Shown here: positions 4,700-20,900 of the stretch, one piece after another
How positions within the stretch are numbered: the stretch's first letter is position 1
Layout: every line of letters starts with the position of its first letter
Source: Actinidia chinensis
Lineage: Eukaryota; Streptophyta; Magnoliopsida; Ericales; Actinidiaceae
NCBI GenBank assembly: GCA_009663005.1
Contig: CM018907.1
Span: forward strand, 16,000,322 to 16,021,983
Length of the DNA stretch: 21,662 nt
Direction: 5' to 3'
The notes under the pieces: model-generated
What the model was told of the DNA's origin: nothing
Database searches by the model: none
What the model saw: only the letters and a program-made list of their open reading frames with translations
Program-made: the position numbers and the translations under genes

Positions 4700-5690
4700 G
4701 ATAAATACATCACTCCTCCCTCCTGTTAAGTTTTTAAAATAACCCCGCTCCCTAACTTTTGAAAGACTATTATAAAAATTTCTCAAGAGGTTTAATGTCT
4801 TATAAAAACGACAAGATCCCTTATTTTTAAGGATTTCATGTTTTTTTTTTTTCTTAATAGACGCAATTAAAATTGATAATATTATCTTTTTTTTAAAAAA
4901 ATACTATTATTTTCACTATATTATAAAATAATTAATTTTTTAATTTATTATTGATAAAAAATAAAAAATGGGTGTTTTACAAATAAATGGGTATTTGATT
5001 AAAAAAGATAATCTTTTATTTATTGATATAGAGAGAAACAAATTGAAAGCCCTACATTTTAAAAGGCAATTTTATTATTTTTGTTAAAAAATTAGTCCAT
5101 GAGAGAATCCTGATAATAGTTTAAAATGGAAGTTGATGGTGTTTCAATCAGAATTATAGAGGGAATATGTAATTATTACAAATCTCAAGGAGTGAGGGAA
5201 ATTTACCGAAATTACCACTGGGTCTTGAGAGATTTGTTGGGTCCCAATAATTCACCCTCTAAACTGGGTGTTACTAGTGTTTTAGTGCCCACACGTGTGC
5301 ATAATTAATTCTTGAAATGAATTATTTTTTTTTGTTTTTTTCTTAAAAATTGCAAGAACAATATGGTTCGGTTCGATCCTTGGTTTTATAATTCAAAATC
5401 GAAACTATCCAATCTGTGTACACCCCTAACTACCCTACTGCTGCACTTCCTTAATGGATTGAAAATTAATCCCTAGTTTGGTTAATTGAGGATATAATGG
5501 GTCTTATTAAAAATTACACTAAGACATATCATATCTATATCAACCTCATGGTTTACTATAGAGGGGGAAAATGGTTATCCGATATAAAATGTAAGGAGCG
5601 GGATGTAATTTTTTAAAATTACAAGGGTGAAACTGTATTTGACCCAAATCTCGGAGTGCTTATTTTTGGTAATTTACCCTAATATTATAG
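4700..5690. mobile_element. Degenerate TIR element of about 1 kb
   Basis: The left end (about 4,700-4,770) carries 'aaatacatcactcctccct' and then 'ccccgctccctaact'. The right end (about 5,585-5,690) read in reverse complement carries 'aaatacagtttcaccctt' and then 'tcccgctccttacat', and it finishes at 'ggtaatttaccc'. The arms align over about 55-60 bp with mismatches, as expected of an old non-autonomous DNA element. The interior has an open frame of 60 codons at 5,126-5,308, starting MEVDGVSIRIIEGI, that I do not recognise and would not call a gene. Arms were compared by eye. Confidence 0.35.
5065..5128. repeat. Dispersed repeat, copy 1
   Basis: This segment (ggcaattttattatt, then gttaaaaaattagtc, then gataatagtttaaaa) closely matches 6,268-6,335 in the same orientation, about 1.2 kb away. 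Weaker similarity may extend some 40 bases upstream. It lies inside the degenerate TIR element. Confidence 0.5.
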
Positions 5691-6267: not shown

Positions 6268-6335
6268 GGCAATCTTGTTATTTAATGTTAAAAAATTAAT
6301 CTTTATGAGAAAATTTTGATAATAATTTAAAAGTA
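6268..6335. repeat. Dispersed repeat, copy 2
   Basis: Partner of 5,065-5,128: ggcaatcttgttattt, then gttaaaaaattaatc, then gataataatttaaaa. It ends just before the long poly-A run, so this copy may be the tail of an inserted element. Confidence 0.5.
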
Positions 6336-7920: not shown

Positions 7921-8205
7921 TAAAGAAATAGTTTTGGTTGTAAATTACATCAAATGCCCCTGCTGAATGTGGCCTGTTTACATTAAACGATGGATGAAGT
8001 TTAGTGATTGATTTAATTGTAATGCATTCAATAAGATTAAGGGATCAAAGTAAGAAAAAATCACTTGTCTGAGGAGTCAAAGTGATCTCAATCAATGCTT
8101 TAAGGGGCAAAGTGTATTTAAAACTATTTACAACTGTCCTAAGCTTAAAAAATTATTAAGTTGTATTTTTTCATGATTTAGCTCAGAAGATCCTGCCTAG
8201 TTGTG

Positions 8206-8630
8206 CTTGAAGATCACGCAATTCTAACGGTTAGAAGACTAGTAGGAATCCAAAGATTCTTGAAACTGGAGACAGTTGGAGGCCCACGGATGAACGGGTA
8301 ATTGCTTGAAGATCAAGCAAATTCTAACGGTTACAAAAATAAAATCCAAAAGATTTCTGGACAACTGGAGCCCAGTTGGCAGGCCAAGGAAGAACGGGTG
8401 GGTTCCATGGGCGGTACACCCATGGGTCTCTTGATTTTGTATAAAAAAAACAATTTCCATCAGAAAGGAAAATCGTCGAAAGCTCCAAATGAAGTTGTAT
8501 GTCTCCTGACCCAGCCAATATCCCCAACGGTAAGAAAAACAAAATCCAAAAGATTTTATATACTGATTTTGTATAAAGAATTCTTGATGATCAAGCCAAG
8601 ATCCATAACGGTAAGAAAAACAAAATCCGA
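8206..8630 (+). promoter_or_regulatory. Array of four degenerate direct repeats with MSA-type AACGG sites
   Basis: Four related units follow the pattern ctTGAaGATCAaGCaa, then AACGGT, then an A-rich stretch with aaaATCCaaAaGATT. The AACGG cores start at 8,226, 8,326, 8,526 and 8,607. The first two units are about 99-100 bp long and align end to end, including a shared 'gaacggg' tail. The first two cores lie in tctaacggtta (8,223-8,233 and 8,323-8,333), which fits the plant mitosis-specific activator consensus YCYAACGGYYA bound by MYB3R factors. The last two differ at one or more positions. The array sits directly upstream of a TATA box. The sites are seen; activity in G2/M is inference. The block could also be the U3 part of an LTR. 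Confidence 0.5.
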
Positions 8631-8859: not shown

Positions 8860-9656
8860 TTGTTATTTTCTTTTATCTTGAGATGTTCTTGGCATTCATA
8901 TTTCTGGGTTTTATCTTTGTGTTTTGTTGTAATTGTTGGGGTGGATTAGCAGAGATTTGCACGAAGATGCTCAGGTTTCGTTGCAAACATTGTCCTACTA
9001 TGAGTTTTATATGATACCTTCTAAATCTCTGTTTACTCTTGAATTTTGAACCCTAATTGGTAAAATCTCATTGCATATAGAGTTTTTTTAATTGTGGGTT
9101 TTTTCATTTTTTTTGGGATTTATGGACGTAAGCGATATACATATATCGGGGTTACATTTTGCCTTCTAACAAGGTAAGAGAGAGGAGAGAGAGAGAAGAC
9201 GATACTGAGAAGGGGTTTTTGCAGGGCTTATCCGAGTTGTAATTCAAAAGATCCCTAAGTTTAAGCAAATGCAATGTTCTGCTTCTGACCTAGATTCATC
9301 TCCAGCATGACAATTTGACTGTGAAGTGCCTGGATACGGGGGGTTTTTAGTTTTTTTTTACCTTTCCCACTTAATTGTTGTAAGTCATAAAGTTTGTGTG
9401 TTCAGTCTATTGTATTTCTAATATTCTCCAAACTTTGCTTTTCTTTTCCTCTATCTGTTTGGAGAAGAAGTTTTTTCTTTGCCTGTAAATATTTCGGGAC
9501 TATGGGAATTAGCTTTTAGTTTAATACCCTTAATATGTTACGGTCATGTTATGTATCTTTGGTCTTAATTGTATTTTGATCGTTGGTCTTGATTGGTGTA
9601 CCTACGCTTCTGTGTTGTTTTTTTCGGACATATATCTCTGTTTCTTCTGTCTGCCA
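8860..9656 (+). other. Leader or intron-like stretch before TRRAP-like unit 1
   Basis: T-rich sequence with splice-like borders, for example 'gattagcag' before a 22-base candidate exon at about 8,951-8,972 and 'tttttgcag' near 9,225. A segment at about 9,226-9,345 reads like an exon or untranslated leader but matches nothing I know. The last intron-like border, 'tctgtctgccag', ends at 9,657. No protein is recognised. Confidence 0.35.
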
Positions 9657-10253
9657 GGTTCAGAGAACAGATCCTGATTTCTGCCTACTTCTTCCGTCAA
9701 GGTGGCGACGTTGGAGCGTCATTCCTAATCTTAAATTGTGTCCTGAAACTTGTCACGGGAATGCTCATTCCTGGTATTTTTGACGAACAAACGTTGGAAT
9801 GAGAATTCCTGCAGAAGTAGCATTCTATTGCCAACAACCAAACGCAACCCTAGTCTTTCTTACTCGAAGGAAGTCTCAGTTTTTCTTCAGAAGCTTTCTC
9901 AAGTTGAAGGCAAACTTCTCTCCAGTGCCTCTAGAACAGTGGGACAGGGAAAATCTCATCAACTTCTTTATGGAACTTGTGCTGAGTCAACATAAGAACT
10001 AGTCATACGTCAAGTTTATTGTCCGTTGTTATTTCCTGATATCCAGGAACATTGAATAATGACCTCAACTGAGTACAATTTTGCGTGGTTTTTTAAGGGC
10101 AAAAAGGGATCCCAGAAATGAGATGAAGATTTTTCTCTTCTCCTTTATCATGAATCTCTTAAGAAAACATTGTTTCACAGGACTGGGAAGCTTTGAGTGA
10201 TGTATTCCGGCATCACACACAGGACTGGATCCTTTGTCTTGCCATCTAGTAGA
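9657..10253 (+). pseudogene. TRRAP/Tra1-like unit 1, block a
   Basis: TRRAP (Tra1) is the very large PIKK-related scaffold that recruits SAGA and NuA4 acetyltransferases to activators in the nucleus. Here the frame is broken, but successive pieces read IPAEV, CQQPNATLVFLTRRKSQFF, LEQWDREN, LLYGTCAEST (next frame), LYHESLKKTLF (from about 10,145) and DWEALSDV (from 10,181). The last two agree with the plant TRRAP stretch before the FAT core. The block ends in 'gccatctagtagaggata', where the partner in unit 2 continues with clean coding sequence, so unit 1 breaks off here. About 9,690-10,250 aligns by eye with 12,845-13,430. Assignment of the first 100 bases is less certain than the rest. Confidence 0.7.
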
Positions 10254-11150
10254 GGATAGTAAGGAGTAGGAGAGGCTGAAAACATTTGGGAAAAGGTGTT
10301 GATCTTGCTTTGGAGCAGGGTGGCAATCTTGAGATGTTGTATGCACGAATTCCTCTTCTACAGCAATTCCAACAACTAGTTGAAGTTAGGAAATTAGAAA
10401 GGATTTTATAGTGACATGGCCAATGGACGCAAACTTTCAGGAAGTTCTGTTGTTGGTGTGCATGGTACCTCATATGCGGTCTCAAAGGACATCCTTGAGC
10501 CTGGAGACTTCAAACTCCTAATGATTTCAATTTGTTGTTGGTCTGATTTGCTGCCCAGGGAGAAATGAGATGTTACAAGCAGTCATTGATCATTTAGGAT
10601 ATTGGTACCACAAATCCACAACTGCACCACCTTCTTGGCTACAATGACTAGGCATGGAATGTCAATAACCTGGCCCCACATTTCTCGGTTAAACAGGGTC
10701 TAAGTGATGTTTGCAGGAGGGCTTCACAAAATAGGAGAAAAAGCAAGGCTTTTCTTGAAATGAAGGAGAGAGCTCACCGGCGGCTTTGATCAACAGTTTC
10801 AATTGGAATATGTTCCTGTGAAGCACAAGCAGAAAATTTCGTCTTAAAGTTGATTCTTATTGAAGATGAAGCGGCCTTGATTCAACCGTACTAATCTGGA
10901 ATATTTCCTGTGAAGCACAAAGCAGAAATTTTTCGTCTAAAGGTGATTCTTATTGAAGATGAAGGCGGACTGTGATCAACCGTACTAATCGGAACTTTTC
11001 CTGTGAAGCACAAGAAGAAAATTTTCGTCTTAAAGGTGTTCTTATTGAGATGAATGACGTGAGGATGCTAACCTTGCATACTCTAATTCCATCAGCCTTT
11101 TAAAAACTTGCTAAGGATGGATTAGATGGGGAATTATTGCGACATGGTAT
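10254..11150 (+). pseudogene. TRRAP/Tra1-like unit 1, block b (FAT-region repeats)
   Basis: An uninterrupted piece at 10,301-10,390 reads DLALEQGG, then ARIPLLQQFQQLVEV. Next come RKLSGSSVVGVHGTSYA (about 10,428-10,480), GTTNPQLHH and AWNVNNLA. These follow the order of the FAT domain of plant TRRAP. Compared with that order, about 18 codons after 'LSDVC' are missing, and the same gap is in unit 2. The stretch holding NLEYFPVKHKAEIFRLKG is present three times (10,779-11,054; listed separately). The block ends with NLAYSNSIS, then a broken match to GWIRWGNYCDM before an intron. Frameshifts occur every 30-100 bases. Confidence 0.85.
10779..11054 (+). repeat. Tandem triplication of a 96-bp coding segment, unit 1
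   Basis: Three copies start at about 10,779, 10,871 and 10,964, each running from (g)cggcctttgatcaac to gaagatgaa. Each copy encodes the TRRAP segment NSTNLEYFPVKHKAEIF plus RLKGDFLLK, with scattered indels. TRRAP as I know it has this segment once. The apparent parent unit is 96 bp, 32 codons, so the array would keep the frame. The same triplication is found in unit 2. Confidence 0.85.
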
Positions 11151-11222
11151 CATTCATACTGCCGGTCATACCATTGGTTTTTTCTGATAACATGAAAATC
11201 TAATGGTAATTTTGATTTGTTA
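11151..11222 (+). other. Intron retained in unit 1
   Basis: Between the GNYCDM-like and AYKQ-like coding pieces lies a T-rich stretch ending ttgttaag. Its counterpart in unit 2 (about 15,928-16,008, ending tttgtttcag) aligns along its length. A shared intron shows that duplication was of genomic DNA and not of a spliced transcript. In unit 1 the acceptor has AAG in place of CAG. Confidence 0.6.
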
Positions 11223-11512
11223 AGGCTTATAAACAGAACCCTATGAGGAGATTAGATTTGTTAAGATTTGGTTAGGAGGCGCTGTGCGTTGCTCGTAAAG
11301 GGTATAAAATAGGCATTCCTAATACAGAAGTCATTTAGTCGTGTTGTATATCTCCTCCAGTTTTGATATCCCATTAAAACTGTGGGAGAGCGGTTGGTTA
11401 GATCTGGACCAAAATACCGTGTGGGTTGGATCTTTGGACTCCACAGCTATACTTTCCTTGCTGAGGACAGAAGCTCCACAGGAAAAGCCACTGTATATCC
11501 CCAGGTAAATAG
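11223..11512 (+). pseudogene. TRRAP/Tra1-like unit 1, block c
   Basis: Broken coding pieces: AYKQNPMRRLDLLRF (cf. TRRAP AYKETHDEIWLEY), GIPNTE, SPPVLIS in place of LYLLSFD, TVGER (cf. EPVGRA), then a match to the WVWLSWIPQL and LLSLQRTEA segment spread over two frames. The latter shows as CGLDLWTPQLYFPC in one frame and TFLAEDRSSTGKATVYPQ in another. The exon probably ends at 'tatccccag' near 11,503, before gtaaat. Confidence 0.75.
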
Positions 11513-11606
11513 TTATTTGCTTCTGTGGGACTTATATGCATTATTCATTCACTATGATGTATGTTGTAGTGTCTTGAATCCTGCTCAACAGTTAGGCACT
11601 CTATAA
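11513..11606 (+). other. Intron-like stretch in unit 1
   Basis: It begins with gtaaatag directly after a coding-like tatccccag. The counterpart in unit 2 (about 16,282-16,390) is similar. It contains the end of an open frame (11,382-11,606) that reads through the exon end and is not a real stop-defined gene. Confidence 0.45.
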
Positions 11607-12235
11607 TGGATGCGCACATATTGCTTGGAACGCCGTGATTTGTAACAATAAATCTGAATTTTGTCGTTAGATTAGCATGGCACAACAAAATGTCTTGGGT
11701 GGTGCGCTCTATTAGCTGGGCTGATGGGAAACGAGGGTGCGATCTGAGTCATAGGTGGGGCTCTTCAGCAACAGGCAATCAGGTTCATCAAGGAAATTCA
11801 AGCTGGGGTGTTGGATCACATGATGGAGGGAATTCGTCGATTTAGCATTGGCACAACAAAATGTCTCTGTGCTGGTGGCTCATTAGCTTGGCTGATGGGA
11901 ACACGAGAGGTGGCGCGAGTATAGGGGGGGCTCTTCAGCAACAGGCAATCAGGTTCTCAGGAAATTCAAGCGGTGGTGTGGATCACATGATGGAGGGAAT
12001 CTCAGTGTGCAAAGAATCTGAAAGATCACACAGCTGGTGATGCAATGTGCAGGTGTGAGTGACCAGCCGCTACAACAGAGTTCTTACGCTATAAATGACA
12101 GTCAGAATGCATTAAGGCGTATGGTGCCCTGGGTTTGGTTGCTTCTGCAGCCAGTGCATTTGGATCCGCAAAAGATATAATGGAGGCTCTTAGAAGGCAA
12201 CAAATAATTTGCAGTGAACTGGAGGTGACCTGAAT
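11607..12235 (+). pseudogene. TRRAP/Tra1-like unit 1, block d (Q/G/S-rich linker)
   Basis: After ERRD and NKSE-like pieces comes MAQQNV, then a low-complexity G/S/Q/H linker (SLADGN, then a piece like NQVHQGN, then GSHDGGN), then SYAINDSQNALRR and AASAFGSAKDIMEALRRQQ, then SELEV. This is the linker plus the following helix of plant TRRAP, ahead of the part leading to the PIKK domain. The linker is present twice here (see the 172-bp duplication) but once in unit 2. A likely donor follows SELE at about 12,224. Confidence 0.8.
11663..12005 (+). repeat. Tandem duplication of about 172 bp, only in unit 1
   Basis: The stretch tcgttagattagcatggcac...gatggagggaattc (11,663-11,834) is repeated as tcgatttagcattggcac...gatggagggaatctc (11,835-12,005). 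Both copies keep gggctcttcagcaacaggca. Unit 2 has a single copy at about 16,443-16,605. The copies differ by many small indels. Confidence 0.85.
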
Positions 12236-12460
12236 TTATGTCGTTCTTTTTCATTTTCGTTCGCCTTATTAGGTCTTAATAGCTAATCCGGAAACTGATG
12301 ATACATTTTATAGGGAAATGCCCTAACAACACAGGGCTTTGAGATACAAATTATTGTGTGTTCTTCCTAACTGCTTTTCTATCACCACTTGTTTGCTGGC
12401 TGTCAACATATCAATTGATAAGAGGAAATTTGCTTGAGAAGAAAGCTGTTTATCTGCCAA
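12236..12460 (+). other. Intron-like stretch in unit 1
   Basis: T-rich sequence between SELE and the next coding piece. It aligns with about 16,842-17,090 in unit 2, both containing 'cattttcgttcgccttatta'. Confidence 0.6.
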
Positions 12461-12825
12461 GTATGTTGTGACACATGAATATAATCAACTTAATGGCTTC
12501 TACGAACACCACATTTTGCGAGTTCTGGCTCAAGGAAATTGGGGTATGGTTGTTTACCCCTTGCGAAGACTAAGACTATTGGCAGTTGTAATGCTCTGCT
12601 GCACCGCTGTTAGAAGTACCCAGAAGGAGATCTCCGGTGTGATGAGGGCAGGCTTTTCAGCAAGATGTTGCTTGAACAAGCATGTTGGAATTTGTGATGG
12701 AGGACAAGCAGGACTTGACGTGACTTGATCCTGAAAGCAAAGCTACATACCAGCCCACCAATTTCTGAACTGACGGGCAACTGAAGCATTGGAAAATGTC
12801 TCCAGAGAATGTTGACGACAGATTT
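12461..12825 (+). pseudogene. TRRAP/Tra1-like unit 1, block e (3' end of unit)
   Basis: Pieces read LLAVV and NALLHRC-KYP over two frames, KEISGVMRAGFSA, NKHVG, LDPESK, then LKHWK and VDDRFPA. These follow plant TRRAP (ELSGVCRACFSA; LTERLKHWKNV; EDRFPAV). At the point where TRRAP should go on to LKLEEES, the sequence switches to the start of unit 2. Unit 2 lacks the ELT..LKHWK..DRFP piece, so the two units complement each other at this border. Confidence 0.8.
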
Positions 12826-13345
12826 CCTGCTGATTCTGCAGTGATTCTTCTCGTCAAGGTGTAGACGTTGGCCGGTAATTTACTAATTCTAATGTGCAAC
12901 TGAACCATGTCTGGAAAGCTCATTGTATTTTTGACGAACTAAACGTTGGAATGGAGTATTCCTACAGAATTAGCATTCCATTGCAAACAACCAACGCAAA
13001 CCCTAGTTCTTTTCTACTCCGAAGGAAGTAGTTTTTCTTCAGGAAGGCTTTCTCAAGTTGATACGGCAAAACTTCACCCAAGTGATCTAGAACAGGGGAC
13101 GGGAATAGCATCACTTCTTTAGGAACCGTTGTGCTGATTCAAATAAGTAAGGTTATAGTTCCAAGTTTATTCGTGTTAATTCTGTTGATCAGGACATTAG
13201 CATAATGATTCAACTGAGTACCAGATACCCCCATTTCTACGGCACGAAGTAGAAAGGCAATTTTTGCTGTTTAAGGACAAAAGACCCAGAAATGAGGACG
13301 AGGATTTTCTCTCTTCTCTTTATATGAATTCTACGAAACATTGTT
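12826..13345 (+). pseudogene. TRRAP/Tra1-like unit 2, block a
   Basis: Aligns with unit 1 from about 9,675. Pieces read DSAVILLVKV, FDELNVGM, a broken match to IPAEVSFHCQQ, a match to LSQVE, then LRTKDPEMRT (about 13,276-13,305) and a broken match to the LYHES piece. LRAKDPE followed by R is a well-kept stretch of plant TRRAP. Many single-base indels break it. Confidence 0.7.
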
Positions 13346-13616
13346 CACAGGACTGGGAATCTTTGAGTGATGTCGTCTGGACTCAAACAAGGACTGGATC
13401 TTCGTCTTGCCATCCTAGTTGAGGATAAAAACGTTTTCACGCTACCAAACTATGGCCTAGGCCTGACAGTTGGGTTTCAGGATCTCTCAGATTCATCTGG
13501 GATGCTGCCATGGTTACTGGACATTCCAGAAAAGTCGGGGGAAGCTCCTCTGACATTTGATAGCCTTCTATCAAAGCATGCACAATTTCTGAATGAGATG
13601 AGCTGCCTTCAATGAT
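13346..13616 (+). pseudogene. TRRAP/Tra1-like unit 2, block b: longest clean exon
   Basis: From 13,345 the sequence gives DWESLSDVVW, and then, one frame over, an 82-codon open stretch (13,367-13,615): LKQGLDLRLAILVEDK, LSDSSGMLPWLLDIPEKSGE, APLTFDSLLSKHAQFLNEM and LQ. It matches plant TRRAP (LKQGLDLLLAILVEDK; EEAPLTFDSLVLKHAQFLNEM). This is the best kept exon of the locus, without an indel over 250 bases. At the exon end the expected GT donor reads cttcaatgatt, so the splice site looks lost. This exon is missing from unit 1. Confidence 0.9.
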
Positions 13617-14027
13617 TCATTCACTTGTAAACAGTTTCAAGAATTAGCTGGCATACTTTTGTTGCTTTAGTTCTGTTTTTTTTTTCTGTGCGATTCAAAT
13701 ATACAGTAGTCAGGCTTACATAAATTCTGGCTGTTAAGTCAGGAAGCGAGTCGCCCGCTCTCGTTCCCTGGCCTAGAAAAACACACTCATATTGGGTGGG
13801 AGGTACGTAGCCTAAAATGTACCAGTTATATGTTTGTTCTGTGTCTGCATGTTGTGTGTTGAGCATTCTCTGTCAGCAGCAAGTTGATTGAATTAAACTA
13901 AATGTCATGCAGCAAGCTAAACGCTATAACTGATTTCTTGCAAATGATTATATGAATAAATTTATTTTTGCTACCCATTGGATTCTCTTTTGATGGAATC
14001 TTTATGATGACTCTCTTTACAGACTGT
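13617..14027 (+). other. Intron in unit 2
   Basis: T-rich, no coding signal. It lies between the LNEM..LQ exon and the VADL exon, where plant TRRAP would be joined as LQVADL. The minus-strand open frame at 13,621-13,866 is a shadow in this intron. Confidence 0.55.
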
Positions 14028-14412
14028 CATTTAGGATCAGTGCTGCAGTATATGATAATAAAATTATTTTTTTGTTCTCTGGTAGGTGGCTGATCTGTTA
14101 TTCCATTGAGGGAGTTAGCACATACCTATGCAAATGTCGCATATCATCTGTGGGTATTGGCGTTTCGCATGTTTGGGTGACCTTAGACAAGGAAGAGCAG
14201 GTGACCTTGACATCTGTACGGGTACCTGTAATTTAGGATCAGTGCTGAAGTATATGATAAATAAATTATTTTTGTTTTTTCTCTGGTTAGGGGCTGATCC
14301 TCATTATTCCATTAAGGGTATTGGCACATACATTGCAAAATGTCAATATCATCTGTGGGTTTGGCGTTTCGCATTGTTTGGGGCCTTGGACAAGGAAAGA
14401 GCAGGAGCACTT
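14028..14412 (+). repeat. Tandem duplication of about 202 bp: intron end plus exon
   Basis: Copy 1 is about 14,028-14,212 and copy 2 about 14,230-14,412. Each starts in the intron (atttaggatcagtgctg), passes a branch/acceptor region ending tctggtag or tctggttag, and enters the exon VADL, then a match to LRELAHTYANVAYHLWVL, then DKEEQ. Both copies of the acceptor are usable in principle (tag|gtggctg and tag|gggctg). TRRAP normally has this exon once. Confidence 0.85.
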
Positions 14413-15000
14413 GCTAAACTACTGAGAACTCTTTTACGAAAGATTATCACAAGCAGCAGCAGGCAAGAAGACCAAATATGTGCAGGCTCTTCTGGAAGGC
14501 TAAGTTGAGTCATAATCAGCCTCACATGCTAGGCAAGCTTGTCAAATATATGGGAAAGACTTGGCTTTGACTCAAAAAAGCCATGTCATGTTGTTCTTGA
14601 ATGACATGAAACTGAATGATCTGGAGTTTCTGGCTGAGCTTTATTGATTTCGAAATGACGGGAAGATATGAGTGGTTCAGAATCCACTGCAGAAGAACTT
14701 TTAGGGGACCGGGCTCTTCTCTTGTCAGAATGGTTACGACAGCGTGTCAAAGCCTTCTTTTACCAAGACATGTTAAGGCAAATCAAGGCACTTAACAACA
14801 ACACAGTACAAAGGGCAAGCTGGTCTTTGGTAAGAGTGGGCTTTATTGTGCTAGTCAACTCAGCATCGGGAGGTGTTTGAGAATTGGGAAAATTGTGAGA
14901 ATATGAAATCTATGGACAGTCTTTGAAAACAGGCATTTGGGCATATTTGAAAGATATGTAATTCAACAAAGGCTCAAGGTAGAAGAAACTCCAGCCTTTG
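14413..15000 (+). pseudogene. TRRAP/Tra1-like unit 2, block c
   Basis: Pieces in TRRAP order: DYHKQQQARRPN, LVKYMGKTW, SHVMLFLNDMK, LAELY, RAGLSLV, QGTYNNTVQRA, WLYCASQLS, ENWENCE, VIQQRLKVEETP. They fit the FAT-domain run of plant TRRAP (MPSELIKYIGKTYN; TYNNTVPKAEM; LYCASQLSQW; KAQVEETPKL) with repeated frame breaks. Unit 1 has nothing equivalent because of its internal deletion. Confidence 0.85.
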
Positions 15001-15927
15001 TCTATTTCACGCCTATTTTTTCCTTCATGAAAGAATAGTAATGGCGTAGGAGAGGCTGAAACCATGGGGGAAGGTGTGATCTTGCTTTGGAGCAGTGGTG
15101 GCATGCCCTGAGAGTCTGTTCATGCAGGAATTCCTCTCTCCAGCATTCCAACAACTAGTTGAAGTCAGGAATTAGCAAGGATTATAGCTGACCTTGCCAA
15201 GACACAAACTTTCAGGAAGTTCTGTTGGTGGTGTAAATGGTAGATCTCAGGACAACCTTGGACATGGAGACCTTCAAACTCTAATGAAATGGAACAATTG
15301 ACGTTTGTTGTGATTGCTGCGAGTGGAGGAATGAAATGTACACTGGGTGGCAGTCATTGATGCCTTAGGATTGGGTACCACAAATTCACAACTTCCACAC
15401 ATTGGCTACCATTGACGAGGAATGGAATGTAATAAACTGGCCCACAGTTCTGTTAAAGCAGGGTGCTGAGTGATGTTTGCAGGAGGGCTTCCATCAAAAT
15501 AGGAGAACAAGCAAAGGCTTTTCTTGAAAGAAGGGAGAGCTCACTGGCGCCTTTGATTCAACAGTACTAATCTGGAAAGTTTCTGTGAAGCACAAGCATA
15601 AAATTTTCGTCTTCTTCTTAAAGTTGATTTCTATTGAAGATGAAGCGGCCTTGATCAACAGTACTAATCTGGAATATTTTCCTGTGAAGCAAAAGCAGAT
15701 TTTTTGTCTTAAAGTGATTTCTTATGAGATGAAGCGGCCTTTGATCAACAGTACTATCTAGAATATTTTCTGTGTGAAGCACAAAGCAGAAATTTTTGTC
15801 TTAAAGGTGATTTCTTATTGAGATGAATGACTGTGATGATGCGAACCTTGCATACCTAATTCCATCACCCTTTTAAAACAACTTGCTAAAGTATGGATTA
15901 GATGAGGGAATTATTTATTGCGGACAT
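15001..15927 (+). pseudogene. TRRAP/Tra1-like unit 2, block d
   Basis: Pieces read DLALEQWWHAL, then a match to IPLLQQFQQLVEV broken by indels, SSVGGVNG-like, GTTNSQL-like, AWNV-like, QEGF..KIGEQAKAF and GELTG. The 96-bp triplication follows (15,547-15,827), then DDANLAYL. It is collinear with unit 1 at 10,254-11,150. The gap of about 18 codons after 'LSDVC' is shared with unit 1. Confidence 0.85.
15547..15827 (+). repeat. Tandem triplication of a 96-bp coding segment, unit 2
   Basis: Copies start at about 15,547, 15,645 and 15,734, each with gtactaatctggaa-like sequence and gtgaagcacaaagcag-like sequence. Copy 1 has a small extra cttctt. The structure and junction (gatgaagcggcctttgatcaac) are the same as in unit 1 at 10,779-11,054. 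Confidence 0.85.
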
Positions 15928-16007
15928 GGTATTCATTCTCTACTGCCGGTCATACTTTGGTTTTTTTTTATAACATGAATATCTAATAGTAATTTGATTT
16001 GTTTCAG

Positions 16008-16281
16008 GCTTAAAACAGACCCAAAAGGAGATTTGTTAGAGGACGTGTTGAGCTGCGTCTCAAGGTATCAAATTCGGCATTCCTAATTCTAGAAGTCATT
16101 AGCTCGTGGTTTTTTATATCTCCTCCGTTTTTGATACTCCCCAAATGAAACTGTGGGAGAGCGTTTGGTTAGTATCTGACCAAAATACCGGCTGGGTTGG
16201 CTCTCTTGGATTCCACAGCTATTCCTTTCCTTGCTGCGGAAAGAAGCTTCAACAGGTAAAATGCCCCTGATATCCCCAGGT
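16008..16281 (+). pseudogene. TRRAP/Tra1-like unit 2, block e
   Basis: Follows an intron ending tttgtttcag. Pieces are a match to AYK, IRHS-like, then TVGERLV and PKYRLGWLSWIPQLFLSL, where WLSWIPQL is an exact TRRAP stretch. The exon ends at 'tatccccag' before gtaaatag. Collinear with 11,223-11,512. Confidence 0.8.
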
Positions 16282-16390
16282 AAATAGTATATTGCTTCTC
16301 GCTGGAACATTATATGATTATTCATTCCACTATGATGTCTTATAGTGTTTGAATCCTGCTCAAAATGGTTAGGCACTCTAACTGGCTCGC

Positions 16391-16841
16391 GCAAATATTT
16401 GCTTTTGAACGCCGTTGATGTAGCAAAATAAATCTGAAATTTTCTCGATTAGCATGGAACCACAAAAAGTCTCTGGTGGCTGGGCGCTCTATAGCTTTGG
16501 CTGATGGGAACCCGAGGGGCGAGTCATAGGGGGGCTCTAGCAAACAGGCATCTGCGTTCATCAAGGAAATCAAGCGGGTGGTGGTGGATCACATGATGGT
16601 AGGAATTTTCAGGTGCAAGAATCTGAAAGATCCACAGCTGGTGATGGCAATGTGCATGCTGGGAGCGACAGCCATAAAACAGAGTTCTTCAGCTATCAAT
16701 GATGGTCAGGATGCATTAAGGCGTAATGGTTGCCCATGGGTTTGGTTGCTTCTGCAGCCAGTGCATTTGATTCCGCAAAGATATAATGAGGCTGTTACAA
16801 GCAGACACACTAATTTGCCAGTGAACTGGAGGGTGATGAAT
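16391..16841 (+). pseudogene. TRRAP/Tra1-like unit 2, block f
   Basis: Pieces: ERR.DVAK, MEPQKV-like, then the G/S/H-rich linker in single copy, SAINDGQDALRRNG (about 16,696-16,740), matches to ASAASAFDSAKI and RSRHTNLPVNW/ASELE in other frames. An open frame at 16,578-16,889 runs through part of this but mixes frames, so its translation is not the TRRAP protein. Confidence 0.8.
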
Positions 16842-17094
16842 TTGAATTTATTTAGTTCTTTCATTTTCGTTCGCCTTATTAGGTCGTAAATCTAAGTCAG
16901 ACACTGCGATACATTTTTATATGTACCATTGCCTACACATTAAACAGGCTTGAGATTAAATTATTGTCGTGTTGCTCCTAACTGCTCTTTCTATCACCAC
17001 CTGTTTGGCTTGCTTTTCCAACAATCAATTAGATAAAGATGGATAATTTGGCTTGGAAGAAGCTTTTTATCTGCAAGTCTTGGTGTGACAACAT

Positions 17095-17465
17095 GAATTA
17101 TATCAACCTTAATGGCTTCTAAAGAAAGAAAAACCACATTTTGCAGATTCGCTCACAGAATTGGGTCATGGTTGTACCCTCCTGAGGAAAGATATTGGCC
17201 AGTTGTTAATGCTCTGCTGACACAGATGTTAGAAGTACCCAGAGGGGCTCCGGTGAGTGTGAAGGGCCTGCTTTTCAGCAGATGTTTCTGAACAAGATGT
17301 TGACTTTGCTGCGAGAGTACAACAGGTCTTTGAAAGTGACCTTGATCCTGAAAGCACTACATTCCAGCCAATCTTCTGTATTGAAGCTTGCAGAGGAAAA
17401 GGTAGGGTGGGCGTGACTTCCATTGTTGTGAGTGGAGGGTTCCCGGGACAGTGTTTTTCGGATCG
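17095..17465 (+). pseudogene. TRRAP/Tra1-like unit 2, block g
   Basis: Pieces: VVNALLTQMLEVPRG, VQQVFESDLDPESTTFQP, then directly SSVLKLAEEKVG, RDFH and PGQ(Y/C)FSD. TRRAP has DLDPEST, then about 25 residues (SELTERLKHWKN..EDRFP), then AVLKLEEESRVLRDFH. That middle part is missing here but present at the end of unit 1. Downstream of here the locus is single copy. Confidence 0.8.
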
Positions 17466-17824
17466 GTCGCTGAATCAGTTTGAGTTATGGTGATCATAGT
17501 CCAACTGATCTTATTGCCGTGTTTCATAATATGAACCGAGTTGCAAAAAAACTTGTACTATCTGTATTGTATGATAACAAGCTCATTGTCTCAGCTCGTA
17601 AATGAATATCAAATTTAACTTTAGGTAAACACAAACAAACCTGCTCTTGCAAAGTATTAGATGAAGTTGGATGTTAACCTTTACACATTTATTCTTGATT
17701 ATATTGGCTCATGATTTTCTGTACTCCCTTTTTTTTTGTCTGTTTTTTTTCCCCTCTACCGCTTCGGGGGCCCCCTGTTTGAGTTGAGAATGCTCCTATG
17801 CTGTTATATTGTTTAACTATCCAT
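17466..17824 (+). other. Intron-like stretch
   Basis: No coding signal. It contains a T-rich tract with a short GC palindrome (gggggccccc, 17,766-17,775) and ends in tatccatcttacag, a good acceptor, just before the next TRRAP-like exon. Confidence 0.5.
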
Positions 17825-17830
17825 CTTACA

Positions 17831-18115
17831 GAAAGTGCACCTAATCATACGGTAAAGTTAGACAGGGTTGGAGCTGATTATAGCACTTGTGCGAAGTATG
17901 GAAAAGAGTGTTTGACGCTGACTCATATAGGCTCAAATGGTCCCAGCGTCATTTTTTTGTTCAGGACATCTTTGACCCAATGATAGAATGATGACGTCAT
18001 AATGCAGCTTTTCTGATGATAACCGAAAGGTTTGAACAAGCACAAGGAATTGAGACGACGCCACATCTGCATTCCTACCCAATTTTATTCCCGTCTGGTC
18101 CCCGGTGATAAGTTT
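17831..18115 (+). pseudogene. TRRAP/Tra1-like exon leading to the PIKK domain
   Basis: An open stretch to 17,983 reads SAPNHTVKLDRVGADYSTC, then LTHIGSNGPSVIF and QTSL-like residues (TRRAP: DHTVKLDRVGAD; LTLIGSDGSQRHF; TSLTP). It continues in other frames as LNKHKELRRRHICIPT (TRRAP: FDKHKESRRRHICIHT) and ILFPSGP. This is the segment just before and into the kinase-like domain, which lacks catalytic activity in TRRAP. It is single copy in this window, so it lies 3' of the duplication. Confidence 0.85.
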
Positions 18116-18329
18116 GGCCATTAATAACTTTTATGTGTGTTCTTTTTTTTTTTTTGTTTACTATGGGAACAAATTTTTATAGATGCATGAGAATTGTCCA
18201 ACAGTGAATCTAACACCTAGAACGACCAATGTATGTAGATATTTAGGGTGGGGATCAATACGTGGTAGTTACTAGGTAGTATATGGATTGATCTATATTC
18301 TAAGATACGATGCTCCGGTATGTTTGTAA

Positions 18330-18655
18330 TAGGTGATGTGATGGATAGTAACTTCATTAAGGGTGGTATGAGAACCCCTGCTTCAGGAATAATTGAAGAC
18401 ACCCTACCAATTAATAAATTAAAAGAGCAACTGCAACAAGAGGATTATGGCCAGATCTCTCCAGACGCTGTTGGTAGATCTCTCTTGCCTCCAATCTTAC
18501 AACGACATGACGAAAATTTGTGACTGACAGCATGGGTGTCATAGTACATGTTACAAGACTGCTAGTGGAAAACCCGTGTGGGGGCTTTTTCAAGAAGCAA
18601 TTTATCAATTAGATAAGATTCCTCACTACCTTATTTCTCTCATTTCTATACCTGC
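18330..18655 (+). pseudogene. TRRAP/Tra1-like last recognisable exon
   Basis: Pieces: LPINKLKEQLQQ, GQISPDAV, VDLSCLQSYNDMTK (TRRAP: VDLRLQAYNDITK), then a match to YKTLPSGNH and WAFKKQFAIQL over frames near 18,560-18,605. After about 18,655 nothing fits, although intact TRRAP should continue through the kinase-like core to a C-terminal FATC motif. The gene relic is therefore truncated or its remaining exons are outside or unrecognisable. Confidence 0.75.
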
Positions 18656-20900
18656 GTCAACATCTCATATTCTAGATGCACAGCTATTCTCATAGATCCG
18701 TGTGCCTGTAAAAGTAGCTACAAGAAAGTTTACGTATACTGATAATTATGTTATTGTGTGTAAAGTTTTAAAACTTGTACATGTCATTGTTGGTTCCCTG
18801 TTCAAATAGGAAAGGATGGGATATATTCTGATTGTCATATGTGCAAAATGTAGCGATGTCTCCTTTTGTCGGGACATCTCTTGAAAGAAAGATACAAGTG
18901 AGATTTGAAAGATTTTTAGTTACATTAATATGTATATGCAGATTTTAGCTGCGTATACCATTGCCTCCTGACATAAGAAACCCTTTTGTTTTTTTATCCC
19001 TCACACGTGTGTATTTGACCATTTTCATTGATGTTCCATAGTTGTCTGGCAGACTTTAACGGCGGATGTAGGTGCACTTATGTTGTTCTGATTCTTGTTC
19101 ACGTCTTTGTTGGCCTCGATCATAAACTAAAATATGAAAAAGGACCAAGCAAGTGGTTATAAGATGATTATATTTCTTGTTATATGTGCGAGAAGAAAGT
19201 GTTGTTACATCCTCTTCCTCTTGCAGGTTGCGTCATAAAAAGAAGGACCAGTGAAAGAACACAAGTTCTCCCCATGATTGTTTTCCAACACGTTAGCACA
19301 GGTCGGGAACTGTTTTACCGTTTTACTGTATGCCCTCACCTGACTACTTGGGTTTTTTGGTTTTCACTTTTGGAAAACTTTTGGTTGTATTTCTCTTTTA
19401 ATTCATTTAAGAAAATCATTGGGTTATTTTGTGTGGCATATCTAATTTTAAGTTTAAACAGTTATGTACGGTCTGTTTAGTTGTACCTTGCAGTCATTGA
19501 CCTTTCAAGCTAGTGTCAGGTCGCCTTATGGAATGGAACTGATTCTTTACAAAATCCATGAAGGCAAGGTCTTGATGAGAATGACTTTGTAAGACAGGAG
19601 TCGTATCTAACTTTCTTCTTCTGTGTATGGTTATGATTTGAGGCAGTGAAATTGTGTTGCCACGGTGAATCGGTTTCGGAGTTTGCAATTAAGGTAGCCA
19701 AAAGAGAGAGAATAGTGACATCCATGTGCAAGAAGAGGCATCAGGATTCGTTGCCCAACGGTAAGAAGAGCAATGAATAATTCCTTGCCCAATTCTTGCA
19801 GTTATTAAACTTTGAGTCACTCTTACACTGCTAGCATCAACCTTTATAGATAATACAGCAGTTAGGTTTAATAAATGAATATTATAGTATCTTCATGCAG
19901 GTTGGGCACTGCCCAAGTCAAATTGCACAGTGCTACTGACTACTACGGAATGCTTGGTAGACGCGGAAAAGGTTAGTTTTGAAGATGGGATTGGTAGGGT
20001 ACTGCATTCAACTTTAGCTTCTTCGTTTTGGAAAATTATGGTTTGTCTTAATGGAAAATCTGTTCTTTCTTGACAGTGGGTTCGATGAACTTGATGGTGA
20101 CACCAATTGTCATGACGTAATCGATTGCTGATATTCTTCAATCGTTAGGATGTGGGAGTGTTATTTACTGATCTAAATGGGTTAACAATAGGAGGTCGTC
20201 TTCCCCATTAAAAAAAAAAGTCAATATACATATGATGGTGGCTTTCAGTAGGGGTGCTGAAATGTTATTTTTTCGTGCTATGGCAAGCGTTCAAAATTGA
20301 ATACAATAGCATAATAGATCGTAAAATTGTTAACTTCATTTTGTTCAATTGTTTGTTGCAATCAATGGGAGTGATTTTTTTTATATAATTAGATATTTAT
20401 GAGATGCTAAATTTGATTCCTTTCCCCCCTTATTTTTCTCGGGGCCATAGACATATTGGTTTGACTCGGGATGATTCTTTTGGTTTGGCCGGAAATGAAA
20501 TAAGCTAGGTGCTGAGTGTAAAGACTACTCATATTTTCTATGCAGGGCAGGTGCTCAGGGAGGTTTCTCTATTGAAGTAGGACTGTGTTGGTGGTTGCAC
20601 AAGCAATGAAGTATAAGCATTTTGTAACACGCAAATGTGCATTAGTTATTCAATGACGATTCTAAATTTGTTTTGTTAGCTATGGCAGACCTGTGGTTGA
20701 AAGTTGTAGCGAGAAGAACCTCAAGGGAAAACACCCTTCAATCGCCAACAAAACAAAGGTGTGCGTTTAGTCAAATCATTTTTGCTTGGAGTTATGCTCT
20801 TTCTTAAGGTGGCATTTATTGGCGGATGCATAATTGTTAATGGTCATTATATTTACTAATCACTGGGGATATGCATATGCTACACATTTCTGATTATGTA
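18656..20900 (+). other. Unrecognised stretch with splice-bounded open segments
   Basis: No known protein is recognised. Several open segments have splice-like borders. At 19,208-19,306, ttgcag precedes an open frame with VIKRRTSERTQVLPMIVFQ. At 19,902-20,075, catgcag precedes AGWALPKSNCTVLLTTTECL, with a possible donor gttagt after GEK-like 'gaaaag'. Another is at 20,546-20,638, and one at about 20,682-20,757 holds YGRPVVESCSEKNLKGKHPS before ggtgtg. They may be exons of a neighbouring gene, untranslated exons, or chance. Minus-strand open frames here (19,494-19,731; 19,893-20,141) look like shadows. Confidence 0.25.

Follow-up and report, generated by a model that had tools for sequence, protein, structure and literature searches.

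The TRA1 (TRRAP) co-activator is encoded by two genes in Arabidopsis, TRA1A (At2g17930) and TRA1B (At4g36080), and by one in rice, according to PMC4532415, and TRA1A/B are counted among the Arabidopsis duplicates in PMC8194025. A different kind of precedent comes from genome assembly. In long-read assemblies, false duplications (homotype or heterotype) leave adjoining direct copies that differ by errors or haplotype, and these can be mistaken for duplications of exons, genes or larger segments (PMC8081667). Here we have analyzed a stretch of 21,662 nucleotides of Actinidia chinensis (GCA_009663005.1, contig CM018907.1, positions 16,000,322 to 16,021,983), called the window below, in which a part of a TRRAP/TRA1 gene is found twice in tandem. 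As in the two Arabidopsis genes, both copies and the tail that follows them encode TRRAP/TRA1 pieces in order. However, in Arabidopsis these are two separate genes, whereas here only the middle-to-late part of the gene is repeated, frameshifted and as an internal tandem. A limited literature search found no internal tandem duplication of TRRAP. Our analysis indicates that the large repeat is probably a false duplication of one locus, i.e. an assembly error. It shares with the described false duplications the adjoining direct copies, but no run of N was seen between them, and inside each copy there are losses and short repeats particular to it. A first-pass annotation of the window had taken TRRAP to be normally a single gene in plants, which is too strong given the two TRA1 genes of Arabidopsis.

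The repeat is clearly present in the sequence. Self-comparison of the whole window by blastn, as the first-pass annotation had suggested, gave three direct matches in the same order and far above chance. Besides database proteins, we used an ad hoc probe (a plant TRRAP stretch composed for this analysis rather than taken from a database, with the N-terminal part of TRRAP outside its coverage). The matches and the resulting features were as follows.

9667 to 10258 against 12818 to 13427: first match, 76.0% identity, E 3e-105 (self-blastn).
10253 to 11834 against 15032 to 16607: second match, 80.9% identity, E 0.0 (self-blastn).
11833 to 12773 against 16442 to 17384: third match, 80.1% identity, E 0.0 (self-blastn).
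9667 to 12830, forward strand: copy 1 of the TRRAP/TRA1 part, frameshifted and lacking about 1.6 kb near 10253 to 10262 (self-blastn, plant TRRAP proteins, frameshift-tolerant alignment of 10263 to 12831).
12818 to 17384, forward strand: copy 2 of the same TRRAP/TRA1 part, frameshifted, including about 13428 to 15031 (self-blastn, plant TRRAP proteins, frameshift-tolerant alignment).
12818 to 12831, forward strand: junction of the copies, with a short resemblance (by eye) between the last letters of copy 1 and the first ones of the unit.
17381 to 18515, forward strand: single-copy 3' TRRAP tail, frameshifted as much as the copies (the match reaches 18515 with database protein P0034 and 18648 with the ad hoc probe).

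The collinear order of the two copies that had been proposed was thus confirmed, with the junction at about 12818 to 12831, but neither of them is a full copy. The segment from about 13428 to 15031 of copy 2 has no counterpart in copy 1 (self-blastn), making the blocks unequal. In its turn, copy 2 lacks about 28 codons at 17370 to 17381 that are kept in copy 1 before 12831 and in plant TRRAP proteins; in the frameshift-tolerant protein alignment, probe residue 1193 is the last one reached by copy 2, and the tail picks up from residue 1222. At the site where copy 1 jumps over its missing 1.6 kb (10253 to 10262), similar letters are found on both sides, by eye. The matches between the copies extend through the introns, as had been claimed, with 80.6% identity over intron columns and 79.4% over exon or unassigned columns (the intron limits are approximate). 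A retrocopy was rejected, since the introns are kept. The repeat search gave no sign of inverted joins, the six inverted pairs being A/T-rich runs.

The gene in the window is, by sequence homology, TRRAP, and the first-pass assignment to its FAT-domain part holds. This identity is independent of the ad hoc probe, because database entries named as plant TRRAP are similar to each of the two copies and to the tail, where the similarity reaches about 18515, in agreement with the single-copy 3' TRRAP sequence described before. The ad hoc probe matched the window from 9834 to 18472 (tblastn), the end of the match varying with probe and method between 18472 and 18648. A 380-residue piece of this probe gave 10 Tra1/TRRAP matches among solved chains (best E 2e-74) and 83 in a protein database, the best being a TRRAP-like protein of Trifolium medium with 90% identity. 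Eight of these 83 proteins were then compared with the window by tblastn. P0001 matched 10286 to 10942 (E 1e-23) and 14361 to 15914 (E 8e-15), P0003 matched 10280 to 10942 (E 4e-24), and P0034 matched 12685 to 12831 and 17831 to 18013 (the latter at E 4e-10). The FAT region is therefore homologous to the TRRAP/Tra1 family of FAT-domain PIKK pseudokinases. Pfam gave no FAT or kinase-like hit, either with three read-through frames of 9601 to 18602 (only MatE, E 0.47) or with seven short frames, all but one lying in the TRRAP part (no FAT, only SIP1, E 0.21), as expected with about eight frameshifts per 100 codons. Of two protein searches with read-through frames of the window, one returned 177 candidates, none of which scored, and the other a single candidate, with none at E up to 10; a PDB search with one frame fragment gave no match. 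There is no complete gene with open reading frames in the window, given the frameshifts and flanks that are near control level: their best local scores (24 to 38) resemble the 34 and 32 of two reverse-complement controls, which were made with the ad hoc probe only. Only the middle-to-late part of the gene was found; the absence of the N-terminal part upstream is less certain, this region falling outside the probes.

How the repeat is to be read depends on the make-up of the differences between the copies. Over the three matching segments, a permissive aligner gave 305 gap events and 221 mismatches, and an indel-averse one 198 and 391. Because the ratio depends on the aligner, we used isolated differences, those flanked by four matching columns on each side. 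There were 102 indels versus 42 substitutions among them (86 versus 41 with the indel-averse aligner), a ratio of 2.1 to 2.4, and their transitions/transversions value was 0.45 to 0.46. Simulated mutation (at rates that we assumed: 0.12 indels per substitution and two-thirds transitions) gave 0.15 to 0.22 indels per substitution and transitions/transversions of 1.8 to 2.1. Simulated read noise, on the other hand, gave 1.9 to 3.8 and 0.47 to 0.54 (10 runs per setting in both simulations). Judged against these simulations, the differences between the copies have the make-up of sequencing error, and the substitution and transition excess expected of a true tandem duplication was not found. Most of the gap events were of one base (225 of 305; 44 of 67, 103 of 141 and 78 of 97 by segment). 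Among the 42 isolated mismatches there were 11 G-T, 8 A-C, 7 A-T, 7 C-T, 6 A-G and 3 C-G, so that A-C and G-T made up 19 of the 42.

The frameshifts tell a similar story. In the frameshift-tolerant alignment with the ad hoc probe, which under strict scores covers only 10263 to 12831 of copy 1 and 12984 to 17370 of copy 2, the 601 codons of copy 1 had 7.7 frameshift events per 100 codons, the 986 codons of copy 2 had 7.8 and the 224 codons of the tail 8.5. Three database proteins gave eight TRRAP alignments, with values between 5.4 and 9.3 (P0001 stops short of the tail). This alignment, also among the suggested checks, showed both blocks and the tail to be TRRAP, all of them full of frameshifts and with some stops as well. 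Over the 534 codons common to both copies, copy 1 has 40 frameshifts and copy 2 has 43; 5 of the 40 coincided with a frameshift of copy 2, no more than chance in what is a low-power test (shifted comparisons: mean 4.3, standard deviation 1.7, maximum 9). Restricting the comparison to identical 17-column windows left 1 of 44 frameshifts, as only 1.9% of the columns qualify. By this weak test, there are no detectable ancestral lesions common to the copies. Taken together, the indel/substitution ratio, the transitions/transversions value, the 1-base gaps, the equal identity of introns and exons, the even frameshift rates and the coincidences at chance level indicate that the small differences between the copies are very probably sequencing error.

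Several short tandem repeats are nested within the copies.

10779 to 11054, forward strand: unit of about 93 bp, three times, in copy 1 (repeat search, self-blastn).
15546 to 15827, forward strand: unit of about 93 bp, three times, at the equivalent place of copy 2 (two of the three units listed by Tandem Repeats Finder).
11672 to 12000, forward strand: tandem pair of a unit of about 170 bp in copy 1, with one counterpart in copy 2 (about 16448 to 16607).
14008 to 14413, forward strand: tandem pair of a unit of about 204 bp, within the segment unique to copy 2.

The 93-bp triplication sits inside a FAT-domain exon in both copies. If a triplication had been followed by a duplication with real divergence, the units at the same place of the two copies should differ clearly from the other between-copy pairs. 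Actually, over the 15 pairs the mean numbers of edits were 16.0 for same-place pairs, 17.2 for other between-copy pairs and 16.0 within copies, and the edit distances of the six units were roughly star-like (R2 0.83, largest residual 3.8). Their majority consensus has 92 letters. The motif appeared in 7 of the 83 database proteins, once in each, and was not shown by the other 76, many of which are too short for that place.

The source would be an uncorrected or barely corrected long-read sequence of a plant TRRAP/TRA1 gene. Two error-laden versions of one locus, be they two reads, contig ends or haplotypes, would have been placed end to end. Their independent errors would have left them only about 80% alike, too little for an assembler or gap-filler to merge them. 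Pieces (about 1.6 kb of copy 1, about 28 codons of copy 2) would have been dropped, or others repeated, along the way. The tandem arrangement and the noise-like differences are plain from the sequence; the origin from a single locus and the manner of joining are what we infer. Raw long-read error is reported to be near 13%, with raised A-C and G-T substitutions and dominant insertions in PacBio and transitions most prominent in Nanopore (PMC7671305). Two versions with somewhat more than 10% error each would look much like the observed copies. A literature search on gap filling returned no papers.

A number of observations speak against a false duplication. Plain read noise does not create the large pieces by which the copies differ. 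By eye, the copies meet where a few letters resemble each other, and such places are often the joining points of real rearrangements and of amplification chimeras. The 93-bp triplication, common to both copies, must have been present in whatever was read twice. The two 170-bp units of copy 1 are 20 edits apart and yet 34 each from the one in copy 2, and indels are less dominant in the 204-bp pair (13 gap events versus 16 mismatches, or 7 versus 25 with the indel-averse aligner). Simulated noise of 10 to 11% per copy gave 80 to 84% identity, slightly above the 76 to 81% observed. The excess of deletions in the probe alignments of both copies (78 versus 45 insertions; 7 versus 12 in the tail) is unlike the insertion excess of PacBio, and there is no transition excess like that of Nanopore, for which reasons we name no sequencing platform. 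In the left flank, a repeat pair (5065 to 5126 and 6268 to 6332) looks mutation-like, with 2 gap events and 9 mismatches, and two short tandem repeats are perfect, at 71 to 98 (7 bp, four times) and at 944 to 984 (21 bp, twice). The left end of the window may thus be cleaner than the TRRAP part, and the noise may be confined to part of the window, like a gap filled with raw reads.

The best of the alternatives is a true, recent tandem duplication of part of TRRAP, whose copies would be nearly identical in the plant, with nearly all of what now separates them coming from error-rich sequence. In that case the second unit, at least, would be a non-functional fragment. We consider it possible but unlikely, and it keeps this standing because of the large-piece differences, the triplication found in both copies and the similar letters at the junction. 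The continuity of the repeat in the contig and the kept introns also fit it, and a very recent true duplication would show few mutation-type differences. However, two loci are not needed, as no difference between the copies rises above noise. Besides, the surrounding gene is incomplete, with no TRRAP 5' part matched upstream and none of the gene past about 18648. The DNA-level segmental duplication proposed by the first-pass annotation is therefore borne out as a collinear repeat with introns, but the differences are noise-like and a false duplication is favoured.

A laboratory chimera, built from pieces of one locus by whole-genome amplification or by template switching during library preparation and then sequenced with the usual read noise, seems very improbable to us. 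It would account for several direct repeats and losses of differing size within 8 kb, and for the junction at similar letters seen by eye, but the repeat search showed no inverted joins and the 93-bp triplication is in both copies. We rejected an old, truly duplicated, decayed and accurately sequenced TRRAP pseudogene, which would explain the numerous frameshifts and occasional stops across the three parts and the truncation at both ends within the window, as there is hardly any chance of it with isolated differences whose indel/substitution ratio is about ten times that of simulated mutation (rates assumed), with no transition excess, and nested units that are star-like.

Around the TRRAP part, a tandem repeat of about 100 bp lies upstream at 8204 to 8399 and is indel-rich (9 gap events and 8 mismatches, or 6 versus 12 with the indel-averse aligner), with related units at 8507 to 8547 and 8588 to 8628 that form a 41-base pair without gaps. 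After the tail, exon-like stretches were seen by eye at 19163 to 20760 on the forward strand (longest open frame 105 aa, at 19163 to 19480), for which Pfam gave no match on that strand at E up to 0.5; possibly this is another frameshifted gene. Pfam searches of the right flank (both strands) and the left flank gave only sub-cut-off hits, judged to be chance, and the Rfam and tRNA scans gave no match.

Taken at face value, the window would hold a large co-activator gene in a broken copy with an internal duplication. Even where only the assembly is used, the indel/substitution ratio, the transition bias at isolated differences and the star-likeness of nested repeats help to distinguish read noise from divergence, and the same tests could screen other apparent gene duplications in noisy assemblies. 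The coding stretch of about 93 bp around TNLEYFPVKHKAEIFRLKGDF is a separate matter. That it is truly triplicated in the TRRAP of this plant is doubtful, a small chance that we allow because three units appear in each of two independently noisy readings, and it would be compatible with a true tandem duplication of the larger segment or with none. If the true unit were of 93 or 96 bp, it would be in frame, and the triplication would add extra helical repeats to the FAT domain.

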